From: an uncultured Treponema sp.
GTDB taxonomy: Bacteria > Spirochaetota > Spirochaetia > Treponematales > Treponemataceae
Assembly (NCBI GenBank): GCA_949299755.1
Contig: CASGBA010000018.1
Location: forward strand, 1 to 41,928
Reading direction: 5' to 3'
DNA length: 41,928 nt
Shown here: positions 12,262-29,056 of the stretch, piece by piece
Layout of the letters: the number at the start of each line of letters is the position of its first letter
How positions within the stretch are numbered: the first letter of the stretch is position 1
Position numbers and translations under genes: made by a program
The notes under the pieces: model-generated
Told to the model about the DNA's origin: nothing
The model's database searches: none
What the model saw: the letters and a program-made list of their open reading frames with translations, nothing else

Positions 12262-13396
12262 ATGATACTTGAAGAATGTAAAGTCCCGATTGCGGAAATA
12301 CGTGCCGCAGTTGATGAAGTATGGGGGCGTCTTTGACCCGGCTGCGGTTAAAGAAAAAATAGCGGAAAAAGAGGAATTTTCAGCCCAGCCTGGTTTTTGG
12401 GAAGATGCCAAAAAAGCGGAAAAAACCATGGCAGAAATAAAGGCTCTGAAAAACAGGATTGAACCCTGGGAGGAATTACGTACCAGGGTGGATGATTTGG
12501 AAGCTCTTTATGAGTTGGCCGCTGAATCCGGTGATGATTCCATGGTTCCTGAAATAGAATCTGAACTGGAATCTGTCCGGACTTCCTTTGAAAAATTGAA
12601 TATACTCAATCTCCTTTCCGGGGAAGTGGACAGAAACAATGCTTTTTTGACAATTCATGCCGGCGCAGGTGGTACCGAGGCCTGTGACTGGGCTCAGATG
12701 CTTTCCCGGATGTATGTCCGCTGGGCTGAGCGCCGGGGCTTTAAGGTTGAGACGGTGGATTTGTTGGAAGCCGACGGTGGAATCAAGTCTGTGACCCACC
12801 GGATTTCCGGGGATTATGTTTTCGGTTATTTGAAGGGGGAAGCTGGGGTTCACAGGCTGGTAAGGATAAGCCCTTTCGATTCAAATGCCCGGCGGCATAC
12901 TTCTTTCACTTCGGTTTATGTGTTCCCGGAACTGGATGATACCATAGAAGTTGAAATAAGGCCGGAAGATTTGCGGGTTGACACTTATCGTTCCGGTGGT
13001 GCCGGAGGACAGCACGTAAACAAGACGGATTCCGCAGTCCGGTTTACCCATCTTCCTACAGGAATTGTTGTTGCCTGCCAGTCTGAAAGAAGCCAGATTA
13101 TGAACAGGCAGACAGCTATGAGCATGCTCAAAGCCAGGTTGTATGAATATTACCGGCAGAAAAAAGAGGAGGAAAACCAACGGTTTGCCTCTGAAAAGAA
13201 GGATATTTCCTGGGGAAATCAGATCCGTTCCTATGTTTTCCAGCCTTATACAATGGTTAAAGATTTGCGTACCAGACATGAAACCGGGAATATCCAGGCT
13301 GTTATGGACGGCGACTTGGATCCTTTCATGGAGGCTTATTTAAGCGCCAAATGGAAAAACCTTCCCCTCGATGAATCCGACGGCGAGGATTTGTGA
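12262..13396 (+). CDS. prfB: Peptide chain release factor 2 (programmed +1 frameshift)
   Basis: RF2 recognises UGA and UAA stops and triggers peptidyl-tRNA hydrolysis. Translation starts at ATG 12262 (GGAGG 6 bases upstream) and reads 24 codons to CTT TGA at 12331-12336. A +1 slip to GAC (12335) then continues to 13396, giving about 377 residues. The recognition tripeptide SPF is at 203-205 and the catalytic GGQ at 248-250, within two residues of their E. coli positions. The join is 12262-12333 plus 12335-13396. The early UGA is the autoregulatory site, not a disabling mutation: low RF2 favours the shift. Confidence 0.97.
12323..12337 (+). promoter_or_regulatory. RF2 +1 frameshift site
   Basis: The sequence is GGGGG (12323-12327) CGT CTT TGA C. 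The internal Shine-Dalgarno-like G run lies 3 bases before the slippery CTT, followed by in-frame TGA and C. This is the same arrangement as in E. coli prfB (AGGGGG UAU CUU UGA C). Confidence 0.95.
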
Positions 13397-18670: not shown

Positions 18671-20017
18671 GTGTCAACATTTGTGTCTGTTAAATTGGCT
18701 CTTTCTTATATAGGAATCGGATGCGCAAAATCAGTTTCAAATGCCAGAAAAAGTTTGTACGGAGCGCTTTTAGGAATAGCTGTCAGTCTTGTGCCCCTAA
18801 TTATAATTCTTGTCGTGGCTGACGGAACTATTTCCGGCATTTCATCCCGTCTGATAGAATTATCCGGTTCCCATATTGCGGCAATTAAAATTTCTGGCCG
18901 CCAGTACGATGCCGGCACTTTTTTGGATTTGGCGGAAAAAATCCCTTCATATGATTCCCAAAACCGTATTGTAACCGCCTGGCCGGAACGGCAGGGAATT
19001 GGGATTGTTGTGGGAGAAAACGGAAGGGCAGGCGGCCAGATCAGGGCGGTCACAGCAGATTTTTTCAAGGCAGCTTCTTTTGATTCCGGATTACTCCGGT
19101 TTTCCTCCGGGCTTAGGGAAAGCACAGGCTTTTCTTTTTCAGGAAACGAAGCTTTTATGGGGGAAAAACTTGCTTCGGACTTGGGACTGAAGCCAGGAAG
19201 TGTTTTTCGGATTCTCACCATGTCTGTTTTACCCAACGGAAAAACAGTTCCCAAATTTTCAGTCTTTACTCTGAAAGATACCGTTTCCTCCGGCTATCAG
19301 GAATTGGATGCCTTATGGGTTTTTGTTCCTTTTGAAACAGGATACCCTCTGTTGGATCCTTCCTCTTCTTCCACATTTATAAGTGTTAGAACGGAAAATC
19401 CTTTTTCAGGCTTGGACAGTATGCTGGTTTTGTTGGATAGAAAATTACCTTCAGGTTTTTTACTGCGCACTTGGGAAGACTTGAACCGTTCAAGGTTTTA
19501 TTCGTTTAATACGACCCGCCTGTTGCTGCTTTTTATCGGCTTTTTGATTCTTCTTGTGGCAGCTGTGAATATTTCCTCGGCTGTTGTAATGCTTGTTTTG
19601 GAGAGGCGGGGCGAAATCGCTATTTTAAAAAGCACCGGAGCCTCTCCGGCTTGTATAAGTTTTTCTTTCATTATTGCCGGTTTTTTGACGGGACTGGGCG
19701 GTCTTATAATAGGTCTTCCTACCGGTATTGTGTGTGCCATTCATATAAATGGCTTGTTTCGTTTTGTAGAACGGTGTATAAATATAATAGCGGGTTTTTT
19801 CAGAGGTTTTAAAAGCCCGGATGTGGCCGCACTTTCTGATGCTGAAATACATTTATTGGATCCTTCCTGTTATCTTGAGACTATACCTGTTACTTTCGAT
19901 TTTAAGGCTTTGTTTCTGATATCGGTGGGAACCCTTGTGTTGTCCGTATTAGTTTCGTTGATTCCTGCCTGGAGGGCAGGACGGGAAAAACCTGTGGAGA
20001 TTTTACGGAAAGTGTGA
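18671..20017 (+). CDS. LolC/E-family permease of the lipoprotein exporter (second copy)
   Basis: 448 residues in the same fold as the first permease. Helix 1 is near 28-52 (YGALLGIAVSLVPLIIILVVADG), followed by a periplasmic domain. Later helices lie near 275-305, 325-355 and 415-435. The coupling motif MLVLERRGEIAILKSTGASPA and terminal WRAGREKPVEILRKV are typical of LolC/E. GTG 18671 has GGAGG 4 bases upstream. The two permeases differ greatly in sequence, so this is a true heterodimeric pair rather than a recent duplication. Confidence 0.88.
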   Translation: MSTFVSVKLALSYIGIGCAKSVSNARKSLYGALLGIAVSLVPLIIILVVADGTISGISSRLIELSGSHIAAIKISGRQYDAGTFLDLAEKIPSYDSQNRIVTAWPERQGIGIVVGENGRAGGQIRAVTADFFKAASFDSGLLRFSSGLRESTGFSFSGNEAFMGEKLASDLGLKPGSVFRILTMSVLPNGKTVPKFSVFTLKDTVSSGYQELDALWVFVPFETGYPLLDPSSSSTFISVRTENPFSGLDSMLVLLDRKLPSGFLLRTWEDLNRSRFYSFNTTRLLLLFIGFLILLVAAVNISSAVVMLVLERRGEIAILKSTGASPACISFSFIIAGFLTGLGGLIIGLPTGIVCAIHINGLFRFVERCINIIAGFFRGFKSPDVAALSDAEIHLLDPSCYLETIPVTFDFKALFLISVGTLVLSVLVSLIPAWRAGREKPVEILRKV

Positions 20018-20025
20018 GGATAATG

Positions 20026-20565
20026 ATGAAATGTGATATTTGCCGGAAACAACAGGCTGTTTTCTTTGTGCGAACCCCTTCTTCCGAGTTGCATTTATGC
20101 GAGGCTTGCGCAAAAAAACAGGGGTTTTCTTCCAGTGTCCCTAAAAAGACAAATGAAAGTGAGTCCACTCTGATTAATATTTTTGCCGGCATATTGAATA
20201 CTGAATCGTCTGAATCCAATTCCGCCGCTGTCTGTCCCCATTGCGGGATTTCCCGGTTGGAAATCCGTAAAACAGGACGGGTAGGATGTGCTTATTGTTA
20301 TACCCAGTTTTCAGCGGATGTGGCGGCACGCCGACGGTCAGAAGGAGGTTTCCTTTCCTATACTGGATCTATGCCGGACTCATATGAAACTGGGGCTGGA
20401 GAGGAAGTGGAAAAACAAACTTTTTCCGAATTAGAAAAGAAAAAAAACGCCGGAGAAATAAAAGCTTTGCGTGAAGAATTGCGCCTGTCGGTTGAACGTG
20501 AAGATTATGAAAATGCGGCCTGTATCAGGGACAGACTGAGGGATCTTGAGGGAAAAAGTGAATAA
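20026..20565 (+). CDS. mcsA: McsA-like zinc-finger adaptor with UVR domain
   Basis: 179 residues. Two CxxC pairs at each of two sites (C3/C6 with C25/C28; C70/C73 with C88/C91) form the zinc modules of McsA. A UVR motif at about 145-176 (EIKALREELRLSVEREDYENAACIRDRLRDL, split here only for description) can bind ClpC. McsA activates the arginine kinase McsB in Firmicutes. ATG 20026 has GAGG 6 bases upstream; ATG 20023 and GTG 20014 also lie in frame. Its 3' end overlaps mcsB. Confidence 0.88.
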   Translation: MKCDICRKQQAVFFVRTPSSELHLCEACAKKQGFSSSVPKKTNESESTLINIFAGILNTESSESNSAAVCPHCGISRLEIRKTGRVGCAYCYTQFSADVAARRRSEGGFLSYTGSMPDSYETGAGEEVEKQTFSELEKKKNAGEIKALREELRLSVEREDYENAACIRDRLRDLEGKSE

Positions 20566-21652
20566 CAGTGGGAATTCACATGATATTTGGTACTCAAAGG
20601 ATGGCCCCGGATCTTCTGTTGTTTTGATTTCACGGGTACGGATAGCAAGAAATGCGGACGGATATGTTTTCCCTTCACGGATAAAAAAGAATGATGCGGA
20701 ACAGGTGCAGTCCCTTGTATTCAACGCTTTTTCTGATCCGGACGCTCCCTGCGAGTTGCAGGCTGTAAAACTTTCTGATCTGGAACCTCTTTCCAGGTTG
20801 ATTCTTTGCGAACGGGGTGTCCTCGATACGGACTGTGGGCTTGAACCCTGGAAAGGCCTTTTGTTTTCAGAGGATGGTGATTTATCCATATGCGTTAATA
20901 TGGAAGATCATGTACGCATCGCTGTTTTTTCCGCCGGTCTTTCCCTGTCAGATGCCTGCGATAAAGCTGATAAAATCGAAAAATTCATGCAGAAAAAAAT
21001 AGATTTTTCCGCCAAGTCCAGATACGGATACCTTACATCCGTAATTGATGATTCCGGTACAGGAATGAAAGTGTCTGTACTCATTTCAATACCTGCCCTT
21101 GTTATAACGGGAATAGGCGACAGGATAGTCAGGGATTGTATTGTGTCCGGATTTTCCGTAAAAGGGTTTTATGACGGACAGAATGATAAAAAATCCCTTG
21201 GATGTCTTTACCAAATTTCCCGTTCCGCGGCCTTTGCGCTGAATCCCGCTTCCCAAATTTCTTCTTTGGAAACCATGACGGAAAAGATAGTTGAGATGGA
21301 ATTACGCGCCAGACAGGACCTCATAAAAACCAGAAAAACGTTTATAGAGGATCTTGTTTTTCGTGCCATAACAACCGCTAAATACGCCCGTTTCCTTGAT
21401 ATTCATGAATCTGTTGATTTGCTCATGAAAATAAAGTTCGCTTTAAATCTTGGTTTCGTAACCGGAGTGAATCAACCTGATATTACCGCTCTTCTTTACC
21501 GGATACGACCTGCCCACATTGAATTCCTGCTTAAAGACCAGAGGCTGAAAGTGGAACCCGATGTTGGACCTGGAATTGATTCAATAAACAGAGCCAGGGC
21601 GATGATTATACAGGAAGTCTTGAAAAATGCCGATATCGATGAAAGAGGTTAA
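20558..21652 (+). CDS. mcsB: McsB-like protein arginine kinase, divergent active site
   Basis: About 364 residues of the phosphagen-kinase family, which in Firmicutes phosphorylates arginines to tag proteins for ClpCP. Fold landmarks are clear: VVLISRVRIARN near the N terminus, NMEDHVRI (the catalytic second Glu is kept), GYLTS and PALVITG. Several motifs differ from B. subtilis McsB as I recall it. SCPTNxGTGLR reads SVIDDSGTGMK (21038-21070), VRGIYGEGS reads VKGFYDGQND, and the phosphoarginine sensor RDxxRA reads DSINRA. Activity may be reduced, altered or lost. GTG 20558 with GAGGG 5 bases upstream is preferred; TTG 20546 is possible. It is followed at once by clpC. Confidence 0.85.
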   Translation: MNNSGNSHDIWYSKDGPGSSVVLISRVRIARNADGYVFPSRIKKNDAEQVQSLVFNAFSDPDAPCELQAVKLSDLEPLSRLILCERGVLDTDCGLEPWKGLLFSEDGDLSICVNMEDHVRIAVFSAGLSLSDACDKADKIEKFMQKKIDFSAKSRYGYLTSVIDDSGTGMKVSVLISIPALVITGIGDRIVRDCIVSGFSVKGFYDGQNDKKSLGCLYQISRSAAFALNPASQISSLETMTEKIVEMELRARQDLIKTRKTFIEDLVFRAITTAKYARFLDIHESVDLLMKIKFALNLGFVTGVNQPDITALLYRIRPAHIEFLLKDQRLKVEPDVGPGIDSINRARAMIIQEVLKNADIDERG

Positions 21653-21654
21653 AT

Positions 21655-24201
21655 ATGTTTAAAGGTCTTTCTCCCCGGGCCCAGCGCCTTTACAGTGTAT
21701 TATCTCCCAGGGAGGCAAAACGTTTCGGATCGAGCCAGATTTTTCCGGAACACATGATGATTGCCCTGATTATTTGTGCCGATGGAACAGGCTATGATTT
21801 ACTGAAAAAACTGAAAATAAACATACCGTTTCTTCTTCAGGAACTTGAGGCGGGAATTCCTTCTGAACCTGCAACAGTTTTTTTCGGTGATATTCCCGAT
21901 TCCCCCAGGTTGAGGGCTGTTTTGGAAACCGCCGCCGCCGCCGCCGCTTCATTCAAGCATGATTACATCGGTACAGAACATTTGGCTTTTGCCTGCATTT
22001 GCGAGGAAATGAGCGCGACAAATGCTTTTATGAATAAAGAAAATATTTCCGCCGAAGAAGTCCGCGCCATTGTTCAGGAAATTTCTCCGGGTCGCTCAAG
22101 CCGATTTGATATCACCGGCACAGGGTCGCACCGCCGTACCCCGGATAATCCGGCAGATCGGATTCAGGCCGCTGACAAGTTCCTTTTGGAATTTTGCCGT
22201 GATATCACCGCCGAATGCCGCGCGGATAAGCTGGATCCTGTTATCGGCAGGGAAACGGAAATCCGTAGGATGGTACAGATATTGTCCCGTAGGAATAAAA
22301 ACAACCCGATGCTTGTGGGCGATCCCGGTGTGGGAAAAACCGCTATTGTAGAAGGTTTGGCCGCTGAGATTGTCGCGGAAAGGGTTCCTCATAATCTTGT
22401 TGATAAGCGTATCCTTGCCCTGGATTTGGCCTCCGTAATTGCAGGGACTAAATTCCGCGGTGAATTTGAAGAGCGGTTTAAGAAAATTGTCCGTGAAATT
22501 GAATCCTCTGATAATATTATTCTATTTATCGATGAAATTCATACCCTTGTGGGAGCCGGAAGTGCCGAAGGTTCTATGGATGCTTCAAATATGCTTAAAC
22601 CCGCTTTGGCCCGGGGAAAGCTTCACTGTATTGGGGCTACAACACAGGATGAGTACCGCAAATATATTGAAAAGGATGCAGCGCTTGAAAGGCGGTTCCA
22701 AACTATTTCTGTGTTGGAAAATTCACCCGAAGAAACCCTCGAGATCCTGAAAGGCATAAAAAACCGCTATTGTTCCTTCCATCATGTGAATTATACTGAT
22801 GAAGCATTGGACGCGGCGGTTTCATTATCCCGCCGTTATATTTCAGGGCGCTTTTTCCCTGACAAAGCGATTGACGTGCTTGACGAAGCAGGGGCCAGAA
22901 AAAAAATAGAGAATGATCACCGTCCTGAAGAACTCCATGATATTGAAGAGCGTATTGTCCAGCTGAACGAAGAAAAGAAGGAACTTGTAAAGACGCAGAA
23001 TTATGAAAGAGCTGCTTTTGTCCGGGATGAGGTCCGTTCATTGAAAGCCAGACTGGAAGAATTGAACAGCAAATGGCGTTCCCCGGATAATTTTTTTGTG
23101 GGCGATGTCTCCGCGGAAGATGTGGCTTCCGTTGTTTCGGAAATAACAGGAGTTCCTGTATCCCTTCCTGGAACAGATGAGAGCCTAAGGTTGGTTTCTC
23201 TGGAAAAAGAAATCCATCGTACTGTTGTAGGCCAGAACGATGCTGTCAAAGCAGTGGCAAATGCCATCCGTAGAAGCAGGGCCGGGTTGAAAACAAAAAA
23301 GCGTCCCGCCGGCTCTTTCATTTTTATGGGTCCGACAGGTGTGGGAAAAACCCTTCTCGCAAAGGCTCTCGCTGATTTTCTTTTTGGCTCAGAAGAATCC
23401 CTTATCCGGGTGGATATGAGTGAATACATGGAGAAACACAATGCCTCTAAACTTGTTGGGGCTCCCCCGGGGTATGTAGGTTACAACGAAGGCGGTGTTT
23501 TAACTGAAAAGGTCAGGCGCAGACCCTATTCCGTGGTTCTTCTGGATGAGATTGAAAAGGCCCATCCGGATGTTTTCAGCCTGCTTCTTCAAATTCTGGA
23601 GGAGGGGGAGTTATACGATACTTCCGGCCGGCGCGCTGATTTTTCCAACACATTTATCATAATGACAGGTAATATCGGTGCCCGTTTTGTTTCCGGTGAA
23701 AACAGGCTGGGATTTTCCTCTTCGGATAGCAGAATCCCCTCATACAAAGAAATGAAGGCTGGTGTCTCAGAAGAATTAAAACACTTCTTTAATCCTGAAT
23801 TCCTCAACCGGGTGGATGATGTTATTGTTTTCACTCCTCTTTCAAATTCGGAAGTTTCAGAAATTCTGGATATGCAGTTGCGGGAAGTGGCTGATTCCCT
23901 TGCGCAACAGGGCATTGGTTTTTCGATTTCCGAATCGGCCAGGTCTGTTTTTATTAAACAAGGTTATGAACCGGATCTGGGTGCAAGACCTATGCGCAGG
24001 TTAATCCAGCGTGAGGTGGAAGATCCCCTGGCGCTCTTGATTCTTGAGCGGAAGATTCTACCTGGAGATATCCTGCGCATAGACGCAAAAAACGGTGGTA
24101 TATGCCTGAAGGTAAAAAAACATCCTGCCAAGCCGTTTGAAGCAGGGCAGGATGAGGGTGCGGGATATCCCGCTGCGGAAAAACACCTTCCTAAGCTTTA
24201 A
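21655..24201 (+). CDS. clpC: ATP-dependent Clp protease ATPase ClpC
   Basis: An 848-residue Hsp100 unfoldase that feeds substrates to ClpP. The N domain (1-140) holds the double Clp repeat. D1 has Walker A GDPGVGKT (222-229) and IILFIDEIHTLVGAG. The middle region contains a UVR-type helix pair (about 430-470), diagnostic of ClpC over ClpA/ClpB. D2 has Walker A GPTGVGKT (559-566) and VVLLDEIEKAHPDV. The likely ClpP-docking loop carries RLGFSS. A run of six Ala codons (93-98) sits in an N-domain helix. AGAGG precedes ATG 21655, 2 bases after mcsB. Its stop overlaps the glgC stop on the other strand by 4 bases. Confidence 0.95.
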   Translation: MFKGLSPRAQRLYSVLSPREAKRFGSSQIFPEHMMIALIICADGTGYDLLKKLKINIPFLLQELEAGIPSEPATVFFGDIPDSPRLRAVLETAAAAAASFKHDYIGTEHLAFACICEEMSATNAFMNKENISAEEVRAIVQEISPGRSSRFDITGTGSHRRTPDNPADRIQAADKFLLEFCRDITAECRADKLDPVIGRETEIRRMVQILSRRNKNNPMLVGDPGVGKTAIVEGLAAEIVAERVPHNLVDKRILALDLASVIAGTKFRGEFEERFKKIVREIESSDNIILFIDEIHTLVGAGSAEGSMDASNMLKPALARGKLHCIGATTQDEYRKYIEKDAALERRFQTISVLENSPEETLEILKGIKNRYCSFHHVNYTDEALDAAVSLSRRYISGRFFPDKAIDVLDEAGARKKIENDHRPEELHDIEERIVQLNEEKKELVKTQNYERAAFVRDEVRSLKARLEELNSKWRSPDNFFVGDVSAEDVASVVSEITGVPVSLPGTDESLRLVSLEKEIHRTVVGQNDAVKAVANAIRRSRAGLKTKKRPAGSFIFMGPTGVGKTLLAKALADFLFGSEESLIRVDMSEYMEKHNASKLVGAPPGYVGYNEGGVLTEKVRRRPYSVVLLDEIEKAHPDVFSLLLQILEEGELYDTSGRRADFSNTFIIMTGNIGARFVSGENRLGFSSSDSRIPSYKEMKAGVSEELKHFFNPEFLNRVDDVIVFTPLSNSEVSEILDMQLREVADSLAQQGIGFSISESARSVFIKQGYEPDLGARPMRRLIQREVEDPLALLILERKILPGDILRIDAKNGGICLKVKKHPAKPFEAGQDEGAGYPAAEKHLPKL
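21931..21948 (+). repeat. GCC trinucleotide run inside clpC
   Basis: Five GCC codons plus GCT encode six alanines in the ClpC N domain. The run is short, and length changes would stay in frame. It may simply reflect helix-favouring alanine use. Confidence 0.5.
24121..24173. other. Two inverted repeats at the convergent clpC/glgC ends
   Basis: CATCCTGCC (24121-24129) pairs with GGCAGGATG (24146-24154). Six bases on lies the perfect 14-base palindrome GCGGGATATCCCGC (24160-24173). Both are inside the clpC 3' end and just beyond the glgC stop. There is no U-tract on either side, so they may be RNA-stabilising hairpins or weak bidirectional terminators. Confidence 0.45.
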
Positions 24202-27320: not shown

Positions 27321-28127
27321 CTACAAAAACCTGATTTCACCGGAATAAAAGGTTTTTAGTCCCTCCTCTGTTTCCATGATAAGCCCTCCCGATTTATCTA
27401 TGCCCCGGAGTATACCTTCTTCCTGATTCGCAAATTTTTCCTTGCTGGAAGCGATGCTTGCCGCCCCCGGAACGAAAAATATCCTTTCATTCCGTTTATA
27501 TAATTTTTTCTCCATCTCTTTTTCCCAGGAATATGTCTCATCCGACATATTTTTTAATTCCTGAAGCAGTATTTCCAGAACTTCCCAAACAGAAGGGGCT
27601 TTTTTATCCATATTTTCCAAAATAAGCGCCAGGGAAGATGCCTTGTTGTTTATCTCCGGTGGAAATTCCTTTTGGGAAACATTCAGTCCTGTGCCCGCAT
27701 AGACAAATTTTCCATCCGATTCGCACAGGATGCCTGACATTTTTTTCCCTTGAAAAAGAACATCATTTGGCCATTTTACTTGGGTTAGCTCCCCTGTATC
27801 ACGGATAAAATAATCAAAAGTTCTGGAAACCGATAATCCGACCCTCAGGGTAAAAGGTTGCGGGGCAGGGGCATTGAATATGGAAGTGCAAATAAGGTTT
27901 TCTCCCGCCTTTGAGAGCCATTTTCGGGCAGGAAGCCGGCCCCTGCCGTTTTTTTGGAAACCGGTCACCGCTGTGGTACCGGATAAAACCCGGCTTTCCT
28001 CTGCCAAAGCCTTTTTTGTTATTTCCCTGGCATCTGTCATAGTGGATCCTGTTTCTTCCTTATAAAAGACAGGTGCTCCGAAAGGATTTATGATTTTATT
28101 TATTGGACAATCCACGGTATTTTTCAT
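27321..28127 (-). CDS. birA: Biotin-protein ligase (no DNA-binding domain)
   Basis: 268 residues. It joins biotin to carrier proteins through biotinyl-AMP. The biotinyl-AMP loop GRGRLPARKW (61-70), KWPNDV (118-123) with the catalytic Lys, and KMSGILCE (129-136) are present. It lacks the N-terminal helix-turn-helix of E. coli BirA, so it is a group I enzyme without repressor function. The ribosome-binding site before ATG 28127 is weak. It lies 20 bases downstream of the dapF-like gene in the murE operon. Confidence 0.93.
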   Translation of the reverse strand: MKNTVDCPINKIINPFGAPVFYKEETGSTMTDAREITKKALAEESRVLSGTTAVTGFQKNGRGRLPARKWLSKAGENLICTSIFNAPAPQPFTLRVGLSVSRTFDYFIRDTGELTQVKWPNDVLFQGKKMSGILCESDGKFVYAGTGLNVSQKEFPPEINNKASSLALILENMDKKAPSVWEVLEILLQELKNMSDETYSWEKEMEKKLYKRNERIFFVPGAASIASSKEKFANQEEGILRGIDKSGGLIMETEEGLKTFYSGEIRFL

Positions 28128-28147: not shown

Positions 28148-29056
28148 TTATACGGCCAATTCCTGAATATCGAATTTCCCTTCAAAAATATATGCCCCTG
28201 AACCTACAGCATAAATTTCGTTCTTTTCGTTTTCTTTGTAATCCCAGAAAACTGCGAGTCTTCGGGATGAATCTGTGTCCTGCTCCAGAATTGCATCAGG
28301 CATTCCCCCGTCGCCTGGTTGCCCGAACATAACCATGGACTGGAAATCTGTAGCCCCGGAACAACAGGACGCACAGAGGGATGCCGCTGCGGCGCTGCAA
28401 GTTCCAGACATTCCCCGGGGAAAGGTTTTAGCTACTATTGTGTCGTCTGTTACAGGCTTTGCCACTACTGGGATAACCTTTTTTTTGGGGAAAGCTTTAT
28501 GAGTTAAATCCGAAAAATCCTGGAAGGAAAACATTCCCCTTTTGTTGGGGTAGGAGACAAGGACATCTTCATGCAAGTGCACGGCTGCGTAGGAACCGTC
28601 AAGACCTTCGTTCTCTATTATTTCATTTATATCTTTTGACCCAGGGGTTATTACGTTTTCCCGCAAAAGGGAAAACGGTGCCCCGCAGGAAATCCGGAAT
28701 TCATTTGCTCCAAGAATATCAACCCGGAATTTTTTTTCCGGCGTATTGAATATTATTTTTTTTCCGTCTGTTCTTCCGGAATCAAATGCGTACCTGGCTG
28801 CACATAGAAGGGCGTCATCGGCTTCGTCCACCAAAAGACCTTCCGGATTGTAAATGCGTATGGAATTATCCCTGCCGAGAAATATACAACCCGACGCACC
28901 TACACCGAATCTCCGGTTGCATATTTTTTTTGCCGTGGTTTCCCAGTCCGCCCTGCGGAATTCCGGCCTGTCCTTTTCATCCTCGCTGAAATGAAGGAAA
29001 TCGCACAGAATAAATCCATTCCCTGCCAGTTGCAGTTTGTAAAAAGGAAATGTCAT
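28148..29056 (-). CDS. DapF-superfamily protein lacking both epimerase cysteines
   Basis: 302 residues that align along their length with diaminopimelate epimerase by pattern. LAGNGFILCD matches the N-terminal GLGNDFMVVD, RRFGVGASG matches DRHLGVGFD, and IRIYNPEG matches the RIFNADG strand. Where E. coli has CGNGARC with catalytic Cys73, this protein reads ADDALLC (Ala79). Where E. coli has ETxACGSGAC with Cys217, it reads GTCSAAAAS (Ala222; a Cys is two positions off at 220). The GNPH segment is also missing. It is therefore unlikely to epimerise diaminopimelate. Its ATG overlaps the murE stop by 4 bases. Confidence 0.75.
   Translation of the reverse strand: MTFPFYKLQLAGNGFILCDFLHFSEDEKDRPEFRRADWETTAKKICNRRFGVGASGCIFLGRDNSIRIYNPEGLLVDEADDALLCAARYAFDSGRTDGKKIIFNTPEKKFRVDILGANEFRISCGAPFSLLRENVITPGSKDINEIIENEGLDGSYAAVHLHEDVLVSYPNKRGMFSFQDFSDLTHKAFPKKKVIPVVAKPVTDDTIVAKTFPRGMSGTCSAAAASLCASCCSGATDFQSMVMFGQPGDGGMPDAILEQDTDSSRRLAVFWDYKENEKNEIYAVGSGAYIFEGKFDIQELAV

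Follow-up and report, generated by a model that had tools for sequence, protein, structure and literature searches.

Diaminopimelate epimerases of the DapF type carry out a two-base racemization that requires two cysteine residues, Cys73 and Cys217 in the numbering of the Haemophilus influenzae enzyme, which serves here as the reference for the catalytic positions. The Escherichia coli DapF double mutant C73A/C217A shows no epimerase activity, and this catalytically dead protein still binds and stimulates RppH (PMC4227774). For the DapF of Chlamydia trachomatis, proposed to stand in as glutamate racemase, single cysteine mutants do not complement for this activity (PMC5885031).

The window analyzed here, the whole stretch of 41,928 nucleotides from a Treponema-like spirochete, contains a gene for a DapF-like protein without this cysteine pair, termed pDapF below, with a reading frame unbroken over 302 amino acids (Table 1). 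The gene is coupled to murE by a 4-base overlap, as described in the earlier note, with the ATGA common to both genes; birA (27321-28127) lies downstream. The nearest named relative, on a contig of an uncultured Treponema sp. (L033), shows 87% protein identity and was the only one revealed by a scan of named genomes. A chance open reading frame or a sequencing error is ruled out because homologues from congeners, at 87% and 64% identity, show the same or equivalent residues.

Table 1. Position of pDapF, its upstream partner and the residues discussed in the text (window coordinates)
Feature	Position	Strand	Basis
pDapF (cysteine-less DapF-like protein), 302 aa	28148..29056	(-)	ORF and translation
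pDapF start codon	29054-29056	(-)	
murE, upstream partner, 511 aa	29053..30588	(-)	TIGR01085, E 4e-157
ATGA, murE stop/pDapF start, 4-base overlap	29053..29056	(-)	sequence
A79 codon, position of catalytic Cys73	28820..28822	(-)	ungapped in profile, hhalign and 36-sequence alignments
D81 codon, aligned to Asn75 of DapF; the same residue in all 16 Treponemataceae homologues	28814..28816	(-)	alignment
C85 codon, equivalent of non-catalytic Cys79	28802..28804	(-)	alignment to H. influenzae DapF
H160 codon, just ahead of the missing GNPH loop; the same residue in all 16 Treponemataceae homologues	28577..28579	(-)	alignment
R214-A222, shortened loop including C220	28391..28417	(-)	hhalign and 36-sequence alignment
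Insertion, ~residues 245-267, Treponemataceae members	28256..28324	(-)	alignments

Two further features of the window lie apart from this locus. The prfB gene contains CTTTGAC at 12331-12337, which resembles the usual programmed +1 frameshift site of release factor 2, and consecutive mcsA-, mcsB- (protein arginine kinase) and clpC-like genes, judged from their translations only, are found at 20014-24201.

The single pDapF sequence scores below the cut-offs of both models of the epimerase family, with 43.1 bits and an E value of 3e-11 against TIGR00652 (cut-off, 114.65 bits) and 15.1 bits and an E value of 0.025 against the Pfam model DAP_epimerase, PF01678 (cut-off, 34.7 bits). A profile of pDapF relatives retrieves the solved DapF structures at an E value of 4e-32 over nearly the full length, and hhalign of the pDapF family with a DapF alignment gives 99.9% over 267 columns, corresponding to homology over the whole length. 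Judged by these profiles, pDapF is a genuine though remote homologue of DapF, which at the same time falls outside DapF proper, as it lacks defining features of the enzyme. The profile search of structures yielded DapF and O-ureidoserine racemase only, with no PhzF match, and the sequence similarity of pDapF to PhzF/PrpF is not closer than that to DapF. An AlphaFold2 model of pDapF, built from 2 sequences only, has a pLDDT of 35, too low for interpretation. The proposal that the protein, presumably of DapF fold, lacks the two-base epimerase site is well supported by the absence of the cysteine pair and of most ligand residues throughout the family, by the single old clade and by purifying selection.

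At the position of Cys73, the CGNG motif is replaced, with A79 in pDapF and with Ala, Ser, Pro, Phe, other residues and a single Cys among 36 homologues; the 16 homologues from Treponemataceae contain Ala, Ser, Pro or Phe. The ACGTG motif of Cys217 is missing altogether. Both hhalign and the 36-sequence alignment show a deletion here: the Cys217 loop of the family is shorter by ~3 residues, and nothing aligns with A216-C217-G218 of DapF. In the same two alignments, A222 corresponds to G220 of DapF and C220 to Q215, directly before the gap, which makes C220 the nearest thiol to the deleted stretch. The earlier note had both catalytic cysteines exchanged for alanine, which holds for A79 and fails for A222, as the latter does not occupy the position of Cys217; its observation that the GNPH loop is missing agrees with the alignments. 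Position 220 is occupied by Cys in 13, Ser in 2 and Thr in 1 of the 16 Treponemataceae homologues and by Leu, Arg, Ile, Ala and others outside this family, with Leu, Arg, Ile or Ala in two other families of the order, f3 and f4, whose members do not share D81 and H160 either. The two-cysteine pair is absent from every member of the pDapF family, whose members have no single replacement base in common, since Cys73 is variously replaced and the Cys217 loop shortened.

The set of residues in contact with diaminopimelate (DAP) in DapF, N11, N64, N157, N190, E208 and R209, is likewise incomplete in pDapF. The equivalents of N11 and R209 are kept (N13 and R214), and N157, N190 and E208 are lost, here as well as across the 36 aligned homologues. 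N70 of pDapF sits at the position of N64 and is not conserved in the relatives, in which N64 is mostly lost. Among the Treponemataceae carriers, N11 is kept in 12/13 and R209 in 11/13; the larger set from this family shows N13 in 15/16, R214 in 12/16 and an invariant C46 (16/16). Within the insertion of the Treponemataceae members, D260 is conserved and D262, S264 and R265 are mostly so. As two-base racemization requires both cysteines, the sequence argues strongly that pDapF would have no DAP epimerase activity.

A survey of 221 genomes of the order, each at least 90% complete, places the pDapF type in about 41 genomes from four sampled families, the Treponemataceae (f1), f3, f4 and f5. All but one of these matches have E values of <1e-37, and ordinary and CarB-fused DapF proteins score 4e-28 or weaker in the same survey. 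A fifth family, f2, also contains the type, and cysteine-less members extend to further orders of the class (G388, G405 and G301). In a maximum-likelihood tree of 37 pDapF-type and 30 DapF sequences, to which a long-branch warning applies, the pDapF type of the five families forms one clade, split from DapF with a support of 100/100, and its subclades track the taxonomic families. A comparison of the two closest congeners, in which synonymous sites approach saturation, gives a dN/dS of 0.068 for pDapF and 0.041 for murE. The gene is intact in 12/13 Treponemataceae carriers among the relatives. In one single-contig genome (G019; L086:6008-6900), the homologue is broken into two reading frames, apparently by a recent event. 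The gene is also missing from many Treponemataceae, so pDapF is not essential to the pathway. The dN/dS ratio of ~0.07 and the age and conservation of a clade without the cysteine pair throughout mark pDapF as an old family maintained by purifying selection and not as a decaying dapF.

The gene neighborhood of pDapF differs between families. In most genomes of the order examined, ddl follows murE, and the Treponemataceae and their sister family f5 show the order murE-ddl-pDapF-murD; in several Treponemataceae without pDapF, murD begins shortly after ddl. In the genus of the window, the murE cluster has lost its native ddl and pDapF overlaps murE directly. The only Ddl match of the window's own genome lies elsewhere (G000:C1:241358-242137) and shares 33% identity with the operon-type Ddl. 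A conserved gene of ~300 amino acids stands between pDapF and murD in the Treponemataceae and f5 (L080:2526-3509, minus strand; L075:7157-8065, plus strand), and Pfam gave no match for the copy in f5. In f3 and f4, pDapF is arranged tail to tail with a gnat-nagZ block in six of the contexts read, and in f2 and another order it is located beside holB and a two-component pair. The mur linkage is restricted to the Treponemataceae and f5, and because these other contexts differ, the link of pDapF with cell-wall genes is frequent but not universal. The family predates the murE linkage, and its role is less local than the earlier note implies. Of the new role in cell-wall metabolism suggested there, a role other than epimerization is probable in view of the loss of the cysteine pair and ligand residues, the old clade and selection; the connection to the cell wall is one of gene position.

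The peptidoglycan of Treponema contains ornithine at the third position, and MurE therefore need not use DAP. The window's own genome possesses DapL, DapB and MurI, and a LysA-like protein scores slightly below the cut-off. A second, intact dapF, which had been proposed as a check, was not found in this genome. Its only other DapF domain forms the C terminus of a 1,429-amino-acid CarB-DapF fusion (G000:C2:274240-278526; L084:241-4527), in which a complete carbamoyl-phosphate synthase large chain is followed by the DapF domain. Here, Cys73 is replaced by Ala (MAGNA) and Cys217 is intact. The same pattern is found in all 18 aligned domains of the fusion clade, which lack Cys73 (17 Ala and 1 Gly, the latter in f5), keep Cys217 and retain nearly all ligand residues. 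This one-cysteine domain is perhaps a sensor domain for an amino acid. In a number of free-standing DapF proteins (L110-L113, L165 and L174), serine takes the place of both catalytic cysteines (SGNG ... ASGS). Some of them lie within a few kilobases of lysA in f3, and one genome of another class (G236) has a serine-type DapF in addition to a two-cysteine DapF elsewhere in the genome. For T. azotonutricium, dapF is said to lie elsewhere in the genome (PMC4176475).

Six genomes possess DapL, DapB and a LysA-like protein, yet no two-cysteine DapF was found in them. Five of these (G004, G019, G020, G023 and G045) show no DapF above the cut-off besides pDapF, and in the sixth (G048), which has the DapL route, neither DapF nor pDapF was detected. 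Three other genomes (G038, G040 and G041) carry pDapF with no dapB and no dapL above the cut-off. A shared role of pDapF in DAP epimerization therefore appears unlikely from the gene content and is rejected.

The explanation preferred here, with a probability of roughly 0.45, is that pDapF is a pseudo-epimerase with a DapF fold that would act by binding, likely on the peptidoglycan-precursor step of MurE. The two-base racemization site has been dismantled through replacement of Cys73, deletion of the Cys217 segment and loss of most DAP contacts, with the fold kept. The protein would then act noncatalytically, as a regulatory or scaffold subunit produced in step with MurE by means of the overlapping genes, and the remnant cleft may still bind a small amino acid ligand. 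Its target in this lineage would be the MurE step, and in related genera possibly also Ddl and MurD. MurE is the simplest partner, as the pDapF gene overlaps murE. Homology, residue losses, a single old clade, selection and conserved linkage are established from the sequences, and we infer that pDapF lacks catalysis, works by binding and targets MurE or its ligand. The conservation of D81 and H160 and the constant Cys, Ser or Thr at position 220 in the Treponemataceae count against such a binding protein, as an enzyme would show them too, and so do the restriction of the mur linkage to the Treponemataceae and f5 and the loss of the gene from many Treponemataceae.

These residues could instead belong to an enzyme with a new chemistry on the DapF fold, in which D81, H160 and perhaps C220 would serve as acid or base for an amino-acid-like substrate. 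PhzF-type isomerases work with a related fold but no such pair of cysteines, and the invariant C46 and the frequent N13 and R214 of the Treponemataceae homologues fit an enzyme as well. Against this stand the absence of D81 and H160 and the different residues at position 220 in f3 and f4, the variation of residue 79 and the lack of any PhzF among the profile matches, which make such an enzyme fairly unlikely. A ligand sensor, a subform of the preferred binding protein, would bind ornithine, lysine or DAP in its cleft and signal to MurE or another partner. The mostly retained equivalents of N11 and R209 in the Treponemataceae and the linkage to MurE, an amino-acid-adding ligase, speak for a sensor, but the equivalents of N64, N157, N190 and E208 are lost, and this form of the binding protein is rather improbable.

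That pDapF supplies the missing LL-DAP epimerase of its carrier genomes through other residues is suggested by the five genomes with a DapL route in which it is the sole candidate seen. It is very unlikely nonetheless, as three genomes keep pDapF without dapB and dapL, G048 has the pathway with neither protein, no base is present at either catalytic position and DAP-binding residues are lost. A functionless remnant of a decaying dapF, in line with the loss of the gene from many Treponemataceae and its break in G019, is highly improbable given the intact copies in 12/13 carriers, the dN/dS of 0.07 and the old clade with invariant residues; recent decay is refuted in the main by selection and by the age and conservation of the clade. 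Finally, a DapF-fold protein within a mur cluster brings to mind the stand-in glutamate racemase proposed for C. trachomatis (PMC5885031). MurI is present in the window's own genome and in 46/46 well-completed relatives, and the chlamydial activity requires both cysteines, so that a racemase of this kind has a negligible probability and is rejected.

In a wider reading, the DapF-fold family of spirochetes would have turned into a specialized regulatory subunit, or else an enzyme of new chemistry, in peptidoglycan-precursor synthesis, with a second DapF of the lineage fused to CarB and deprived of one catalytic cysteine, perhaps as an amino acid sensor; the pDapF family would be older than the families carrying it. 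This reading is tentative and on balance doubtful. If it is true, pDapF represents an undescribed component of spirochete cell-wall assembly, and an action of pDapF on MurE, Ddl or MurD would make it a new control point of spirochete cell-wall synthesis. Annotation by homology may label pDapF genes as diaminopimelate epimerase and so assign a working lysine/DAP step for which the residues give no support. The analysis also exposes a pathway gap, as several Treponema-like genomes possess DapL, DapB and a LysA-like protein without a two-cysteine DapF.

In the open-access literature, no description of a cysteine-less DapF family or of a CarB-DapF fusion was found. The closest described system is DapF itself (TIGR00652/PF01678; H. 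influenzae structures 1GQZ and 2GKE), with which pDapF shares full-length profile homology, presumably the same two-domain fold and, in the Treponemataceae, the equivalents of N11 and Cys79. It differs from DapF by the missing Cys73, Cys217 segment, GNPH loop, N157, N190 and E208, by a score far under the cut-off and by its occurrence in genomes without dapB and dapL. The E. coli DapF-RppH pair (PMC4227774) resembles the proposed situation in that a DapF fold acts by protein binding with both cysteines exchanged for Ala; there, however, the protein is normally a working epimerase, and the partner is an RNA pyrophosphohydrolase and not a cell-wall enzyme. The histidine racemase HisR/CntK (PMC11602996), the O-ureidoserine racemase (7VDY) and the chlamydial DapF/glutamate racemase (PMC5885031) combine a DapF fold with a function different from DAP epimerization, as is suggested for pDapF, but all three depend on the two cysteines that pDapF lacks. 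The CarB-fused DapF of the window's own genome is likewise without the full cysteine pair; in contrast to pDapF, it belongs to a separate clade and has lost only Cys73, keeping Cys217 and nearly all ligand residues.
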